Part shown: positions 285 through 18,043 of the stretch, in pieces | Numbering within the stretch: the stretch's first letter is position 1 | How the letters are laid out: each line of letters begins with the position of its first letter | NCBI GenBank assembly: GCA_021838635.1 | Contig: JAKCDC010000029.1 | Span: 1-34,446, forward strand | Reading direction: 5' to 3' | Source: Pseudomonadota bacterium | Lineage (GTDB): Bacteria; Pseudomonadota; Gammaproteobacteria; Steroidobacterales; Steroidobacteraceae | Length of the DNA: 34,446 nucleotides | Made by a program: the position numbers and the translations under genes | The notes under the pieces: generated by a model | What the model was told of the DNA's origin: nothing | Databases searched by the model: none | The model's input: the letters and a program-made list of their open reading frames with translations, nothing else

Positions 285-536
285 TCAGCGTGCGTGAGCA
301 AGCTCTTCCCGGACGATCTCGCGCATCACTTTGGCGGTCAGCGGACGATCATTCTCGGCAAGCGCGGCGCGCAGCGCCTCGTTGATGAGGGTCTGGTAGC
401 CGCGCCCGGCCCCTTCTGCTTTGGCACGGAATGCTTCGATGACCTCGTCATCGATCATGATCGTGATGCGTGTTTTGCCGGGGGAGGGGATTACTGCGCC
501 GCGCTTGCCGCGGCTGAAGTCATATTCCTTTCGCAT
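285..536 (-). CDS. brnA: BrnA-type antitoxin
   Basis: The product is an 83-residue antitoxin of the BrnA family. It is predicted to bind and neutralise the BrnT ribonuclease encoded just upstream and to repress the shared promoter. The sequence shows the family pattern: a basic N-terminus, then a ribbon-helix-helix segment with ITIMIDDEVIEAF followed by YQTLINEALRAAL. The chosen ATG (536) starts MRKEYDF, as is typical; a longer reading frame to 674 only adds sequence that lies inside brnT. The start overlaps the end of brnT by 17 nt, which suggests translational coupling. The toxin-first order is normal for brnTA. The pair lies in the tRNA-Leu-associated island, where toxin-antitoxin modules are common cargo. 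Confidence 0.88.
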   Translation of the reverse strand: MRKEYDFSRGKRGAVIPSPGKTRITIMIDDEVIEAFRAKAEGAGRGYQTLINEALRAALAENDRPLTAKVMREIVREELAHAR

Positions 537-792
537 ATTGGGCTGCCTCTGATTTGCTCGCCTTGCGAGCGGAAATGATGCGAGTGCGATCGCCACGTGG
601 CGTGTGGATGGTGACGAGAGTTCGCCCGAGCGCGTCAATCCCAAGAGTGACGAAGCGGCGTTCGTCCTCGGCATCTGGATCCTCCAGCGTCAAGGCGTTC
701 GGGTCCCGGAGCGCCTGCTCCGCGTGGGCAAAACTCACGCCGTGCTTGCGCAGGTTCGCCTCTGCCTTGGCGGGGTCGAACTCGATCTCCAT
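520..792 (-). CDS. brnT: BrnT-type ribonuclease toxin
   Basis: The product is a 90-residue BrnT toxin, a small RelE-fold ribonuclease that inhibits translation when free of BrnA. Family hallmarks are visible: N-terminal EFDPAKAEANLRKHGVSF, then the acidic DPDAEDERRFVTLG segment, and the C-terminal RTRIISARKASKSEAAQYA. I chose the ATG at 792 because homologues begin ME-(I/F)-EFD. An in-frame ATG at 807 adds only five residues and lies inside a 21-bp palindrome (801-821) that is probably the operator. Neither start has a well-spaced Shine-Dalgarno sequence, so a short or leaderless transcript is possible. The gene is the first of a two-gene operon with brnA. Confidence 0.88.
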   Translation of the reverse strand: MEIEFDPAKAEANLRKHGVSFAHAEQALRDPNALTLEDPDAEDERRFVTLGIDALGRTLVTIHTPRGDRTRIISARKASKSEAAQYAKGI

Positions 793-800
793 CCCTGTAT

Positions 801-821
801 TATGCATATCAAATATGCATA
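801..821. promoter_or_regulatory. Palindromic operator of brnTA
   Basis: This is a perfect inverted repeat with 9-bp arms (TATGCATAT / ATATGCATA) around a CAA centre, in an otherwise GC-rich stretch. It lies immediately upstream of, and partly over, the alternative brnT start. Known BrnTA systems are autoregulated by BrnA binding near the promoter, so this is the obvious candidate site. Confidence 0.6.
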
Positions 822-4277: not shown

Positions 4278-4303
4278 TGGGTCTGCCCGAGGTCGGAGTC
4301 GAA
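4278..4303. repeat. tRNA-Leu 3'-end direct repeat, copy 2
   Basis: These 26 bp are identical to 6903-6928. They cover the 3' part of the T arm, the 3' acceptor strand, the discriminator base and six downstream bases. Identity breaks sharply on both sides, as expected for a recombination core. Confidence 0.9.
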
Positions 4304-5325: not shown

Positions 5326-5452
5326 GGATTACCGGCTTGGTCGGCGGCAGTCGGCCAGAAGCGGCCGGACAGGCGATAGATTTGCGGGGCTGAAACCAGA
5401 CGTTCAGAATGGATGCTCGGATAAGAGCTAATGTTAGGGGGGTGATCGCGCA

Positions 5453-6709: not shown

Positions 6710-6902
6710 GACCGAAGTGTTTGTTTACGCGTAGATGGTCAGGGGAAGCGATTCGACACCTTACGGTAGGCACCCCGGAACCGGCCATAATCCACCGTCG
6801 GCTTCGGGTCGATACCGGCCCGTCAACTTCGGGCGGTCGCTCCGGCAGCTGGCGCACTGTGAGTAGGCTGGTGGAGGCCAGCGAACGCCAGCGAAAAGGA
6901 GG

Positions 6903-6928
6903 TGGGTCTGCCCGAGGTCGGAGTCGAA
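6903..6928. repeat. tRNA-Leu 3'-end direct repeat, host copy
   Basis: This is the copy inside the intact tRNA gene. It spans six bases beyond the discriminator, the 3' acceptor strand and part of the T arm, and is repeated exactly at 4278-4303 and over 20 bp at 1681-1700. Confidence 0.9.
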
Positions 6929-7224
6929 CCGACACGCTTTTAAGGGCGGCGGATTTTCATCCCACTTCGACTTTCGTCGCCCCCGTGGCCTTAGGCCACC
7001 GGGGTTCGTGGGCTGGAGCACGCCTTCACCATAGCCTCGCGGCCTTAGGTGCCCGCCGTCTGCTCTCTACACCTTCCCCGCAGGGCGCGGGGCTTGGCTC
7101 GGCATGAGCTCGAAGTTCTCAGGGCCTCTACCGAGTTTGACGGGCTTCACCTCACAGATTTCTCCGCGAGGGCTCAAGTTGTATGGTCTGAGTCCGCTGC
7201 GTCTACCAATTCCGCCACTCGGGC
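6909..7224 (-). tRNA. tRNA-Leu(CAA), split by a group I intron
   Basis: The 5' exon is 7224-7190 (35 nt) and the 3' exon 6957-6909 (49 nt); the CCA end is not encoded. Joined, they give an 84-nt class II tRNA: a 7-bp acceptor stem (GCCCGAG/CTCGGGC), a D stem GCG/CGC with a GG-containing loop, an anticodon stem GCGGA/TCCGC with loop CTCAAAA (anticodon CAA), a long variable arm with a CGC/GCG stem, and a T stem GTCGG/CCGAC with loop TTCGACT. The discriminator is A, as in leucine tRNAs. Leu(CAA) is the only identity consistent with a seven-base loop and a conserved intron boundary. It decodes UUG. The gene is the integration target for the island on its 3' side. Confidence 0.88.
6958..7189 (-). 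ncRNA. Group I intron in the tRNA-Leu anticodon loop
   Basis: The 232-nt insert has the conserved group I core in order: Q-like GCCGAGCCAAGCC (7091-7103), R-like GTGTAGAGAGCAGACGGC (7055-7072) and S-like AAGGCGTGCTCCAGC (7012-7026), all read on the minus strand. The P7 pairing GAGCA/TGCTC keeps complementarity while differing from the common GACTA/TAGTC. A guide segment near the 5' end (TTGAGCC) can pair with the exon end GGACTC. The intron ends in G before AAAATCC, as in the cyanobacterial tRNA-Leu(UAA) intron, and the core closely resembles the Azoarcus tRNA-Ile intron. It contains no open reading frame for a homing endonuclease. The 3' part has a strong hairpin (GTGGCC TAA GGCCAC). Confidence 0.9.
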
Positions 7225-7235
7225 ACGAGGGCGAG

Positions 7236-7264
7236 AGTATACGGGGCCGGACTCGTCCTGGAAA
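7236..7264 (-). promoter_or_regulatory. Promoter of tRNA-Leu
   Basis: On the minus strand TTTCCA (7264-7259) and TATACT (7241-7236) are 17 nt apart. Transcription would begin about five bases before the mature tRNA end. The sequence between the -10 box and the start is C-rich, as is usual for stringently controlled tRNA promoters. Confidence 0.55.
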
Positions 7265-7309
7265 CTGGCGAGGCCGCCGGTCCGCCCTGGCACCGTGTAC
7301 CATTCGCGG

Positions 7310-9530
<2,221 letters not shown>

Positions 9531-9929: not shown

Positions 9930-11804
9930 ATGCTCGAATACGCTCGTTGGAAGTACTTCCTGATCGCGGCCGTACTGGCCCTAGGCCTGCTGTTCGCGCT
10001 GCCGAACGTGTTTGGCCAGGATCCGGCGCTGCAGCTGGCGCACGCGGATCACTCGGCGGTGACGAGCGCCGAGACGCACGTGGTCACGTCCTTCCTGCAG
10101 CAGCGGAAGATTCCCTTCCGCAGGGCGTACGTGCAGAACGGTCGTCTGATCGTGCGGTTCGCAAATGTGCCCGATCAGCTGCGCGGCAGCGATGCCATCG
10201 ATGGCCAGTTCAAGAAGCAGTACATCTCGGCCAAGACGCTCGTGCCGCGCACCCCGGGGTGGCTACGTGCCCTGGGGCTGAAGCCGATGCCGCTCGGGCT
10301 GGATTTGAGCGGTGGCCTGGACCTTCTTTATCAGGTCGATATCAAAAGCGCGGTGCGCCAGATCCTGCAGACCTACACCCAGGACGCCTCACGGGCGCTG
10401 GCGGATGCGAAGGTGCCGGTGGCCGGCATCGCCGATGTCGCGATCGATGGTAGCGCGTTGCCGAACACGATCCAGATCACGCTCGCGCCGAACGCGAATC
10501 TGGCCACTGCGCAACGCGCCCTCGCCGACCCGCTGCGTGGCCTGACCATCAATACGAGCACCGGCTCGGGCGGTGCGCTCATCCAGGCGACCATGCCGGC
10601 GGCGAAGATCCTCGCACGCGAGAATTATGCGATCGAGCAGAACATCTCCATTCTGCGCAATCGCGCCAACCAGCTGGGCGTCTCCGAGCCGAAGGTGGAG
10701 CGCCAAGGCAACGACCGCATCGACGTGCAGCTGCCCGGCGTGCAGAACATGGCCGAGGTCAAGCACCTGCTCGGCCAGACGGCGACGCTGGAATTCCACC
10801 TCAACGACATGGAGAACAACGCGTTCGAGGCGCAGCAGAGCGGTAACGTGCCGCTCGGGGACAAGCTCTACACGGACACCTCAATGGGCATTCCGGTGCT
10901 GTTGAAGCGCGAGGTGATCGCCACCGGGGATCAGCTCACCAATGCCACGGTGGGTCAGAGTCAGCAGGGACCGGCGGTCAATATCACGCTCGACAGCCGG
11001 GCCGGCGAGAGCATGCTAAGGACCACCAAGCAGAACGTCGGCAAGCAGATGGGCGTGGTGCTCATCACCAAGCACACCGAGACGCGCAAGGTCGATGGCA
11101 AGCAGGTGACGCGGCAGGTGACCACCGAGAAGGTGATCAATGACGCCACCATCGATGGAGTGTTCGCTGACCGCTTCCAGATCTCCGGTCTCACGCTCGG
11201 GGAGGCGCAGGATCTGGCCATCCTGTTGCGTTCCGGCTCGTTCGTGACGCCCATCAGCCTGGTGTCGGAAAATATCATCGGTCCAAGCCTCGGTGCGGCA
11301 AACATCCACATGGGCATGATGGCGCTGATCATCGGTATGGCTGGCGTGCTGATGTTCATGGCCTTGTACTACAAGGTCTTCGGGCTGGTGGCCGATGCGG
11401 TTCTGGTCGCGAACGTCGTGCTGTTGACGGCGCTGCTGTCGATGATGCACGCCTCGCTGTCGCTGCCGGGCATCGCCGGCATCATCCTGACCGTGGGCAT
11501 CGCAGTCGACGCGAACGTGCTGATCTATGAGCGCATCCGCGAGGAGCTGCGCAAGGGCGTGACGCCGCAGGCGGCGATCCGTGCCGGGTTTGAGAAGGCG
11601 TTCTCGGCGATCGCGGACTCGAACGTCACCACCGCGATTGCGGGCCTGGTGCTGTGGATTTTCGGCACCGGGGCGATCCGCGGCTTTGCCGTGGTGCTGA
11701 CCCTCGGCATTGCCACTTCGATGTTCACCTCGCTGATGGGCAGCCGCGCGGTGGTGACGCTCATGTACGGCGGGCGGCGCAAGATCGCCCGGCTGCACAT
11801 CTAG
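9930..11804 (+). CDS. secD: Protein translocase subunit SecD
   Basis: SecD uses the proton gradient to help release translocated proteins on the periplasmic side. The 624-residue product has the expected plan: a first membrane helix at about 9-27, the large periplasmic P1 region (LGLDLSGGLDLLYQVD at about 122-137 is the conserved D-L-x-G-G motif), and five more membrane helices in the last 170 residues. The C-terminal part carries GIAVDANVLIYERIREELR, the signature of the SecD/SecF fold, with the functionally important Asp. It is translated as part of the yajC-secD-secF operon; spacings are 3 and 10 nt. Confidence 0.97.
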   Translation: MLEYARWKYFLIAAVLALGLLFALPNVFGQDPALQLAHADHSAVTSAETHVVTSFLQQRKIPFRRAYVQNGRLIVRFANVPDQLRGSDAIDGQFKKQYISAKTLVPRTPGWLRALGLKPMPLGLDLSGGLDLLYQVDIKSAVRQILQTYTQDASRALADAKVPVAGIADVAIDGSALPNTIQITLAPNANLATAQRALADPLRGLTINTSTGSGGALIQATMPAAKILARENYAIEQNISILRNRANQLGVSEPKVERQGNDRIDVQLPGVQNMAEVKHLLGQTATLEFHLNDMENNAFEAQQSGNVPLGDKLYTDTSMGIPVLLKREVIATGDQLTNATVGQSQQGPAVNITLDSRAGESMLRTTKQNVGKQMGVVLITKHTETRKVDGKQVTRQVTTEKVINDATIDGVFADRFQISGLTLGEAQDLAILLRSGSFVTPISLVSENIIGPSLGAANIHMGMMALIIGMAGVLMFMALYYKVFGLVADAVLVANVVLLTALLSMMHASLSLPGIAGIILTVGIAVDANVLIYERIREELRKGVTPQAAIRAGFEKAFSAIADSNVTTAIAGLVLWIFGTGAIRGFAVVLTLGIATSMFTSLMGSRAVVTLMYGGRRKIARLHI

Positions 11805-17032: not shown

Positions 17033-18043
17033 TCAGCGGCGCTGTGCGGCGCTCGCGGGCGCCGGTTTGAAACCGTAGCGGGCGAAGATGCGCTCGGCGG
17101 TGCCCGAGTGCAGGAACGCGAGCCAGGCGCGCGCGGCCCGCGGATGGCGTGCGCCGCGCACCATGGCGGCGGCGTAGATCGCCGTCACGTTGTCGGCGGG
17201 CGCAATGTCGACGTGGCTCAGCGGGTGACCGATCTGCTGCTGGAAAATCGCTTCGGATTTCCACGTGACGCCGGCATCGGCGATGCCCTGCATGAGAAAC
17301 AGCGGTGTTTGGCGATGATGGATGTGCGTAAGGATGGTTTGTCCGTCGGCCACTTTGCTGACGTACACCGTGTGGGCGAGCGCCGGGCCGCCGGCCCGCT
17401 CTAGGGCCATGCGGATCTGGCGCGCCACGCCTTCCCAGGCCGGGTTCGGCATCGCCAGGCGCACGCCCGGCCGGCCGAGATCGGCAAGGCCCGCGATGTG
17501 CGCCGGGTTGCCGGCCGGCACCATGATGGTCAGGGTGTTGGTGGCGTACGGGACCGCGGGCGGTACCAATCGTCGTGCGGCGATCTGTCCGCGGACCTTC
17601 TTCAGACCCGCGGCGTACACATCGGGTGCGACGGTGAATGTCAGATTGCCGGAGGTGAACGTGCCGCCGTTCGCCATGGCCTTGATCAGCAGGCCGGGTG
17701 GCAGCGTGACGTAGAAGATCCGCCCGCGCAGTCGCGGATGCTGCGCTGAGAACGCCTGCACCAGCGGTGCCATCGCGAAGTAGTAGTTGCCGCCGACGAA
17801 AATCACGAGTCCCGGGTGAACGAGACTGCCGTGGAAGTCCGGCATGTCGTCGACTTCCGGCACGGTGATGTTCAGGCCCTGGTGCAGGGCCGGATCATTC
17901 GCGCCCTGCGACCAGGGCGGGTACAGCCGCTCGGCGTACTGCGGTGGACCGACCGCTCGCGCGGCGCCGGCGGCATGCACCGGGCCGGCGAGCAGTGCGG
18001 CGAACATGCAGCCGGCGAATGCAGTGAGATGTCGTGTGATCAT
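17033..18043 (-). CDS. ModA-like periplasmic binding protein, orphan
   Basis: This 336-residue protein has a signal peptide (about residues 1-24, with AALLAGPVHA before the cleavage site) and a type 2 periplasmic-binding fold. The family pattern of ModA-like/SBP_bac_11 proteins is visible: NTLTIMVPAGNPAHIAGLAD, LGRPGVRLAMPNPAWEGVA, then LMQGIADAGVTWKSEA and FLHSGTAERIFARYGF at the C-terminus. No permease or ATPase gene lies nearby, so it may deliver or sense an oxyanion in the periplasm instead of feeding an ABC importer. Position between a DsrE-like gene and doxDA suggests a sulfur oxyanion, but molybdate or sulfate are equally possible by fold. ATG 18043 was chosen because it precedes the signal peptide. 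Confidence 0.8.
   Translation of the reverse strand: MITRHLTAFAGCMFAALLAGPVHAAGAARAVGPPQYAERLYPPWSQGANDPALHQGLNITVPEVDDMPDFHGSLVHPGLVIFVGGNYYFAMAPLVQAFSAQHPRLRGRIFYVTLPPGLLIKAMANGGTFTSGNLTFTVAPDVYAAGLKKVRGQIAARRLVPPAVPYATNTLTIMVPAGNPAHIAGLADLGRPGVRLAMPNPAWEGVARQIRMALERAGGPALAHTVYVSKVADGQTILTHIHHRQTPLFLMQGIADAGVTWKSEAIFQQQIGHPLSHVDIAPADNVTAIYAAAMVRGARHPRAARAWLAFLHSGTAERIFARYGFKPAPASAAQRR

Follow-up and report, generated by a model that had tools for sequence, protein, structure and literature searches.

A 232-nt insert splits a gammaproteobacterial tRNA-Leu(CAA) gene between C34 and A35 and, judged from its sequence, is a group I intron. The gene lies on the minus strand at 7224..6909 of the window, the whole stretch of 34,446 nucleotides that was analysed, and the insert occupies 7189..6958. 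Taken as a whole, the data are best explained by a group I intron of probable foreign, UAA-type origin in tRNA-Leu(CAA), which would be removed in two steps to leave the anticodon CAA, and we give this reading a probability of roughly 0.88. The CAA isoacceptor, the C-G pair at the splice site and the probable foreign origin are what is unusual here, and none of the three featured in the original prediction.

The interrupted tRNA gene

With introns allowed, ARAGORN reported a minus-strand tRNA-Leu(CAA) at 7225..6908, containing a 232-nt intron that ends exactly at 7189 and 6958. The original prediction had placed a 232-nt insert at 6958..7189 in the anticodon loop of a tRNA-Leu, and the two agree to the base. 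Run without introns, the program found zero tRNAs across the window. The 5′ exon (7190..7224; ARAGORN and direct reading of the sequence) contains the acceptor, the D arm, the 5′ anticodon stem and the loop bases C32, U33 and C34, and the 3′ exon (6909..6957; ARAGORN) runs from A35 to A73, CCA not being encoded in the window's genome. The two halves (7224..7190 and 6957..6909), with discriminator A73 and a long variable arm, are of the leucine tRNA type. A group I intron at C34/A35 is supported by ARAGORN, by copies from other members of the host genus and by the covariance model described below. At the 3′ end the sequence reads ATG|AAAATCC, as had been noted beforehand; the terminal G (omega-G, 6958..6958) is constant in 34/34 genus copies, while the bases preceding it vary.

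Evidence for a group I intron

The core motif GAAGGTGTAGAGAGCAGACGG had a single occurrence at up to three mismatches, and was matched in none of 100 shuffles. A motif pattern scan of public genomes gave at least 119 stretches, 80 of them listed, which served as the source of rows for a covariance model. ARAGORN read an intron-bearing tRNA around the motif in 74 of the 80 listed stretches, some of the anticodons and ends being plainly wrong; three stretches that it labelled Leu(CAA) (L167, L206 and L218) were read as CAU tRNAs and set aside. Thirty-one leucine rows with usable ends were reduced to 28 by omission of the CAA row L133, of L187 with its shifted ends and of L157, and then to 23 by omission of five that have the window's P7 sequence. 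The resulting model of 23 tRNA-Leu(UAA) introns from other lineages, from which genus members and all rows sharing the window's P7 sequence were absent, matched 7199..6948 with 176 bits (E 3.3e-61). The match covered the window intron end to end and was the only one in the window.

Covariation was assessed on 101 matches. Over 59 pairs including P7, and 100 distinct rows, 96.6% of cells were paired, and 45/59 pairs had changed on both sides, compared with at most 23 when the partners were slid by 1-3 columns; because the alignment was fitted to the covariance model, these pair counts lean towards the model. P7 was absent from the model behind the alignment and was added afterwards. It is paired in 99.8% of cells over 100 distinct rows, with three of its six pairs changed on both sides, which is the P7 pairing with covarying bases that had been described from the window by itself. 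Within the host genus P7 is invariant, and the covariation is against other lineages. Thus the conserved core P3, P4, P5, P6, P7 and P8 shows the covariation expected of a group I intron, and the intron-final G is likewise present in every genus copy. The minimum free energy fold of the window intron contains P2, P3, P4, P5, P6, P8 and P9 (z -3.0), and 2 of 200 shuffles folded as well. The insertion point and significant homology are those of the tRNA-Leu 34/35 intron lineage; that lineage has a UAA host, and the CAA host therefore makes the window intron a variant of it and not a plain member. The group I identity proposed at the outset was borne out by the 176-bit match and the covarying core.

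Rfam gave no group I match at the gathering cut-off in the window, and none at E<=10 in 6800..7350 or in the whole genome; the window intron does not reach the 50-bit gathering threshold of RF00028 (Intron_gpI). This silence is the one point in favour of an insertion of another kind, such as a protein-spliced intron, mobile DNA or an assembly chimera. In a control with RF00028 on eight loci carrying such introns, two scored above 50 bits and four from 44.9 to 23.7, the six spanning 54.5-23.7, and the window intron and its UAA neighbour were both unlisted at E<=1. RF00028 therefore fades out over this intron family, and the silence reflects a limit of that model. Against any other kind of insertion stand the covariance model match, the core covariation and the presence of the same structure in 34 assemblies, which refute it at the level of sequence; we give it practically no credence. 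The original prediction had proposed an Infernal search with the Rfam model and had named the lack of a significant covariance-model hit as evidence against itself; RF00028 did not match, but the lineage-built model was decisive, and that objection does not hold. As the Rfam group I model and default ARAGORN both miss the intron, pipelines that depend on them would list the genome as being without this tRNA.

Predicted structure and the splice-site pair

All structural elements lie on the minus strand. The internal guide sequence UUGAG (7173..7177; covariation and splice-site comparison) is predicted to pair with exon CUC and intron A1 and G2; the resulting P1 would have C34-G as its splice-site pair. 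Covariation and folding together support the P2 hairpin (7150..7171, formed by 7171-7163 with 7158-7150), the 5′ and 3′ strands of P3 (7139..7145 and 7051..7057), those of P4 (7129..7135 and 7098..7104), the P8 hairpin (7028..7050) and the P9 domain (6961..7012), in which a closing helix of 7012-7008 with 6965-6961 encloses two inner hairpins. P6 and P6a (7072..7097) come from the fold. P7, placed by covariation, consists of the 5′ strand GAGAGCA (7067-7061), with a bulged A, and the 3′ strand UGCUCC (7020-7015). The putative guanosine-binding site is G125-C174 (intron numbering) beside the bulged A, and is invariant in 99/99 rows lettered on both sides. By alignment comparison, the region 7105..7128 comprises J4/5 (7128-7127), P5 (7126-7124 with 7109-7107) and J5/4 (7106-7105); from known group I structures, we presume that this region receives the P1 splice-site pair.

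In the proposed pathway, exon CUC of the anticodon loop would pair with the guide UUGAG to give P1, and a guanosine bound at P7 would cut after C34. The freed 5′ exon would then attack after the intron's terminal G, and the joined exons would form the loop CUCAAAA with anticodon CAA. On this reading of the sequence the intron very probably cuts itself out. We infer that splicing takes place, that it is independent of protein, and that it is needed to decode UUG.

The last exon base forms C-G in 19/19 aligned genus CAA rows, as against U·G in 79/79 UAA rows (L133 and L187 being set apart from the latter count), and C precedes the cut in 34/34 genus copies. The window intron thus departs from the U·G pair, which we treat as typical of group I introns and not as defining them. 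If the cut stays where it is, C at position 34 is forced by the CAA anticodon. The CAA introns start with AG, as opposed to GA in their seven nearest UAA relatives, so that the first pairs are C-G, A-U, G·U in the former and U·G, G·U, A-U in the latter. One J5/4 base is A or G in 79/79 UAA rows and C in 7/19 CAA rows. A change to G in J4/5, found in 7/19 CAA rows, also occurs in 16/72 UAA rows and therefore proves nothing. From mutational work on other group I introns, replacement of U·G by C-G should slow the first step of splicing.

Distribution in the host genus

BLAST was used to search 99 genomes, including 58 of the host genus with the window's own among them. A full-length intron copy was found in 34/58 genus genomes, and among the matches listed all copies were in the genus, although BLAST could miss remote ones. 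ARAGORN found an empty tRNA-Leu(CAA) gene in 14 genus genomes (one of them clipped by a contig end) and in one genome from another genus of the family; those of the 14 genus genomes show the expected spliced form. In the remaining 10/58 genus genomes neither an intron-bearing nor an empty CAA gene was found; seven of the ten are less than 90% complete, and three (G029, G043 and G057) are 96-97% complete.

These ten genomes, together with the replacement of U·G by C-G at the splice site, are what speaks for an intron that is group I by descent but is now slow or dead, in a CAA gene on its way out, with the UAA tRNA reading both UUG and UUA. Decay is not how the locus looks: the exons are near-invariant in the 30 carriers compared at full length, and long stretches of the intron core do not vary in any of the 34 copies, neither of which would be kept under decay. 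In addition, the genome's own UAA gene is also interrupted, which leaves no fallback free of splicing. We consider a slow or dead intron distinctly improbable, and prefer an intron that splices.

A SecD tree was made for the host genomes. Of 50 genomes chosen, G034 had no match and G022 and G053 gave only fragments, leaving 47. On this tree the presence of the intron needs 6 changes, at least 4 of them forced by well-supported branches, compared with 12.9 in shuffles, and the count was unchanged when G060 was left out. So few changes indicate that the intron has mostly been inherited, with repeated loss or gain. Wherever one contig holds both the tRNA gene and secD, no more than ~7 kb separates them, whether the genome is a carrier or empty. 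SecD also bore out the gammaproteobacterial host named in the original prediction. Among named records outside the genus its best match was Peristeroidobacter soli (596 bits), followed by several gammaproteobacteria at 534 to 486 bits, against 414-429 for betaproteobacteria; some gammaproteobacteria scored no better than betaproteobacteria (Carnimonas, 427; a Cellvibrionales MAG, 407; SB0661_bin_12, 361). One genus member (L234) is deposited as Gammaproteobacteria bacterium isolate CP_BM_ER_34.

A second intron and the decoding of UUR leucine codons

The tRNA-Leu(UAA) gene of the window's genome (G000:C58:3185-3536) is likewise interrupted between positions 34 and 35, by a group I intron of 265 nt. 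The leucine tRNAs with anticodons CAG, GAG and UAG are intact (tRNA search and ARAGORN). The same searches found no uninterrupted leucine tRNA with anticodon CAA or UAA; as the assembly is 96.5% complete, an unseen intact copy is possible. A second intact tRNA-Leu(CAA), which the original prediction had named as counter-evidence, was accordingly among the things not found there. Most genus genomes are fragmented and many are incomplete, so that in these the lack of a second tRNA copy could stem from a gap in the assembly. Thirteen window genes contain 44 UUG and 0 UUA codons in 5,033 codons, gene starts being approximate. If the assembly is right, the reading of UUG would depend on splicing by a ribozyme, in a genome in which no UUR-leucine tRNA free of a ribozyme intron was found.

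Origin of the intron

For the phylogeny of the intron, which the original prediction had suggested, one of the 101 matches was not read as a tRNA intron and was dropped, leaving 100 rows. The sequences are short, many forks are weak and the root is a midpoint root. The 19 genus CAA introns formed one clade (support 100/100). This clade joined seven UAA introns (L145, L230, L184, L144, L122, L128 and L219, which between them come from the betaproteobacteria Hydrogenophaga, Variovorax, Achromobacter and Azonexus, from Pseudofulvimonas gallinarii, from a Lysobacterales MAG and from Stutzerimonas nosocomialis) in a 100/99 group of 26 rows, being nested among them or sister to them. The 26 rows sit in turn in a 100/90 group of 30, with four more betaproteobacterial UAA introns. 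The tree program warned that the 26-row group and the pair L205/L157 are long branches that meet, at a join external to the 26 rows. The UAA introns of the genus itself are elsewhere, in a 95/96 group with 19 of 30 other rows from the order; the other 11, several of which belong to the same family, group with introns of alphaproteobacteria. Among UAA introns of the order there is thus more than one origin as well.

The two interrupted genes share an insertion point and a homologous core within one genome, as would be the case if the CAA intron were a local copy of the genome's UAA intron. Forcing the genus CAA and UAA introns together, however, made the tree 95.6 log units worse (AU p 4.3e-7, in a test named after the tree had been seen), and local duplication was rejected. 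Over aligned columns the window intron is 59% identical to the genome's own UAA intron and 75-78% identical to the seven foreign UAA introns, whose P7 and P3 sequences it matches in the five compared. A local copy is on these grounds very improbable.

The grouping of the CAA introns with foreign UAA introns, and not with the genus's own, indicates that lateral acquisition probably brought them into a new tRNA; by phylogeny, a UAA-type intron from another order probably landed in the CAA tRNA. The splice junctions are one base apart (CAA GGACTC|AAAATCC; UAA GGACTT|AAAATCC), so that entry into the sister tRNA by reverse splicing or homing is plausible, and the transfer may have gone by either of these or by recombination at the tRNA locus. 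An antisense HNH-type gene lies inside the long tRNA-Leu(UAA) introns of three gammaproteobacterial MAGs (L142, L148 and L229); of their three proteins, the two that were searched both reach the Pfam HNH_3 cut-off. In genus member G005 the UAA intron (L097) contains an antisense HNH-type gene broken by a stop, in an insert at a place matching P6/P6a of the window intron. The intron lineage has thus had a homing gene, for which the CAA introns, at 224-244 nt, are too short. The exact CAA 5′ splice-region pattern was also met in five viral-contig stretches; none has a covariance-model match or a tRNA there, and phage carriage was rejected, the hits being taken as chance. By exact matching only, the same pattern occurred in 1/369 genomes of the class, the window's own, which is the only genus member in that sample.

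Alternatively, the locus might have been replaced by a complete tRNA gene, foreign or duplicated, that brought the intron with it and may have travelled on an integrating element. G050 has, ~210 nt upstream of the intron-bearing gene, the 5′ half of a tRNA-Leu(CAA) that lacks the intron (L064 432-470, G050:C69), and in the window, G005 and G050 the tRNA looks like an integration site. Only one such remnant was found, however, carrier exons nearly equal those of empty sisters, and the tRNA-secD spacing is alike in both. We regard replacement of the locus as unlikely, though by no means negligible, and favour acquisition of the intron into a resident CAA tRNA.

Repeats at the 3′ end of the tRNA were observed in two of these genomes. 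Three direct copies of the tRNA 3′ end, TTCGACTCCGACCTCGGGCA, lie on the minus strand of the window at 6909-6928, 4284-4303 and 1681-1700. The second also has GACCCA, common to the tRNA's own flank, and CCA follows the third. Between the copies lie two stretches of ~2.6 kb, which contain Phd/PIN and ArsR-AHSA1 genes in one case and a Fic gene in the other; no integrase was found among the five proteins searched from these stretches. The arrangement resembles the outcome of tandem integration at this tRNA, in which the encoded CCA would have been moved to the distal end. Beyond the outermost repeat is a BrnT/BrnA toxin-antitoxin pair (285-807, minus strand). In L063 (G005:C200) the 49-nt 3′ exon occurs four times (686-734, 5384-5432, 11363-11411 and 17191-17239), at intervals of ~5-6 kb, with GCGGACTC in front of all but the first; the tRNA has the appearance of a site used repeatedly for integration, the anticodon loop forming its core.

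Taken together, transfer and splice-site change suggest a more specific scenario, which we offer tentatively, at slightly less than even odds. On jumping from another order into the CAA tRNA, a UAA intron would have swapped U·G for C-G, kept this pair through at least 34 species, and still spliced well enough for every UUR-leucine tRNA found in the host to depend on a ribozyme; adaptation could have come, for example, through the fixed AG start, which places a G·U pair two positions farther inwards, and through changes in J4/5 and J5/4. If so, the clade would be a natural experiment on bypassing the U·G requirement. A clade without U·G, with close U·G relatives and a one-base exon difference, makes the role of the pair directly testable, and the probable transfer would be a case of an intron crossing from one leucine tRNA to another and from one order to another.

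Introns in other tRNA genes

The lineage-built model matched 154/296 genomes of the order at E<=0.001, not all of the matches being in leucine tRNAs: 15 such stretches were read, as 5 Leu(UAA), 2 Arg(UCU) and 8 CAU tRNAs. Group I introns were seen in apparent tRNA-Ile2(CAU) genes of five genus members and two relatives (L278-L284; labelled Gln(CTG) by ARAGORN), and the counterpart in the window's genome is intronless. Those in tRNA-Arg(UCU) (L285 and L286) lie within tRNA clusters in other families of the order. Three leucine tRNA introns (L187, L212 and L169) seem by eye to be inserted one base earlier, at U33|N34, keeping U before the cut; L212, from an alphaproteobacterial MAG, reads CAA, and a cut after U33 is an alternative way to keep U·G. 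Among the matches listed, motif and ARAGORN readings also gave candidate tRNA group I introns in records named Acidobacteria, Bacteroidetes, Planctomycetota, Chloroflexi, Coriobacteriia, Microbacterium and others (L117-L235). Bacterial tRNA group I introns are given for cyanobacteria, alpha- and betaproteobacteria in PMC4033280. On the motif and ARAGORN readings among the matches listed, these candidates suggest a range wider than the reviews covered here state.

Comparison with known systems

Searches of the open-access literature yielded no bacterial tRNA-Leu(CAA) group I intron, and a narrower one on the splice-site pair yielded no natural C-G case. The papers found describe the cyanobacterial tRNA-Leu intron (PMC4033280, PMC4476775), mention Ile2 and fMet tRNA cases (PMC8450103) and speak of tRNA genes in general as group I intron hosts (PMC3984707). 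The original prediction knew of no described gammaproteobacterial tRNA-Leu case. Such cases are in print: tRNA-Leu-TAA introns of Ca. Thiomargarita nelsonii and Beggiatoa, the latter credited to MacGregor et al. 2013, appear in PMC4853749 as putative group I introns with structure and type undetermined there, and public genomes hold many more. Like the window intron they are in a gammaproteobacterial tRNA-Leu, but in the UAA isoacceptor.

The tRNA-Leu(CAA) intron of a Coriobacteriia MAG (L133) shares with the window intron the CAA anticodon, the C34|A35 position and the C-G pair. It differs in belonging to another phylum, in lying on a long branch among alphaproteobacterial UAA introns, where its place is unsure, and in its 59% identity. 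The cyanobacterial and plastid tRNA-Leu(UAA) introns and the Azoarcus tRNA-Ile intron (subgroup IC3) have what we take to be the same insertion point and general architecture as the window intron. Within the genus, the UAA introns share position and fold with the CAA introns and are found by the same model, but the genome's own UAA intron has another P7 sequence and falls in a separate clade. The seven foreign UAA introns come closest, sharing position 34/35, the core, a length of ~220-232 nt and, in the five compared, the same P3 and P7 sequences; they differ from the window intron in their UAA host tRNA, their U·G pair and their GA start.
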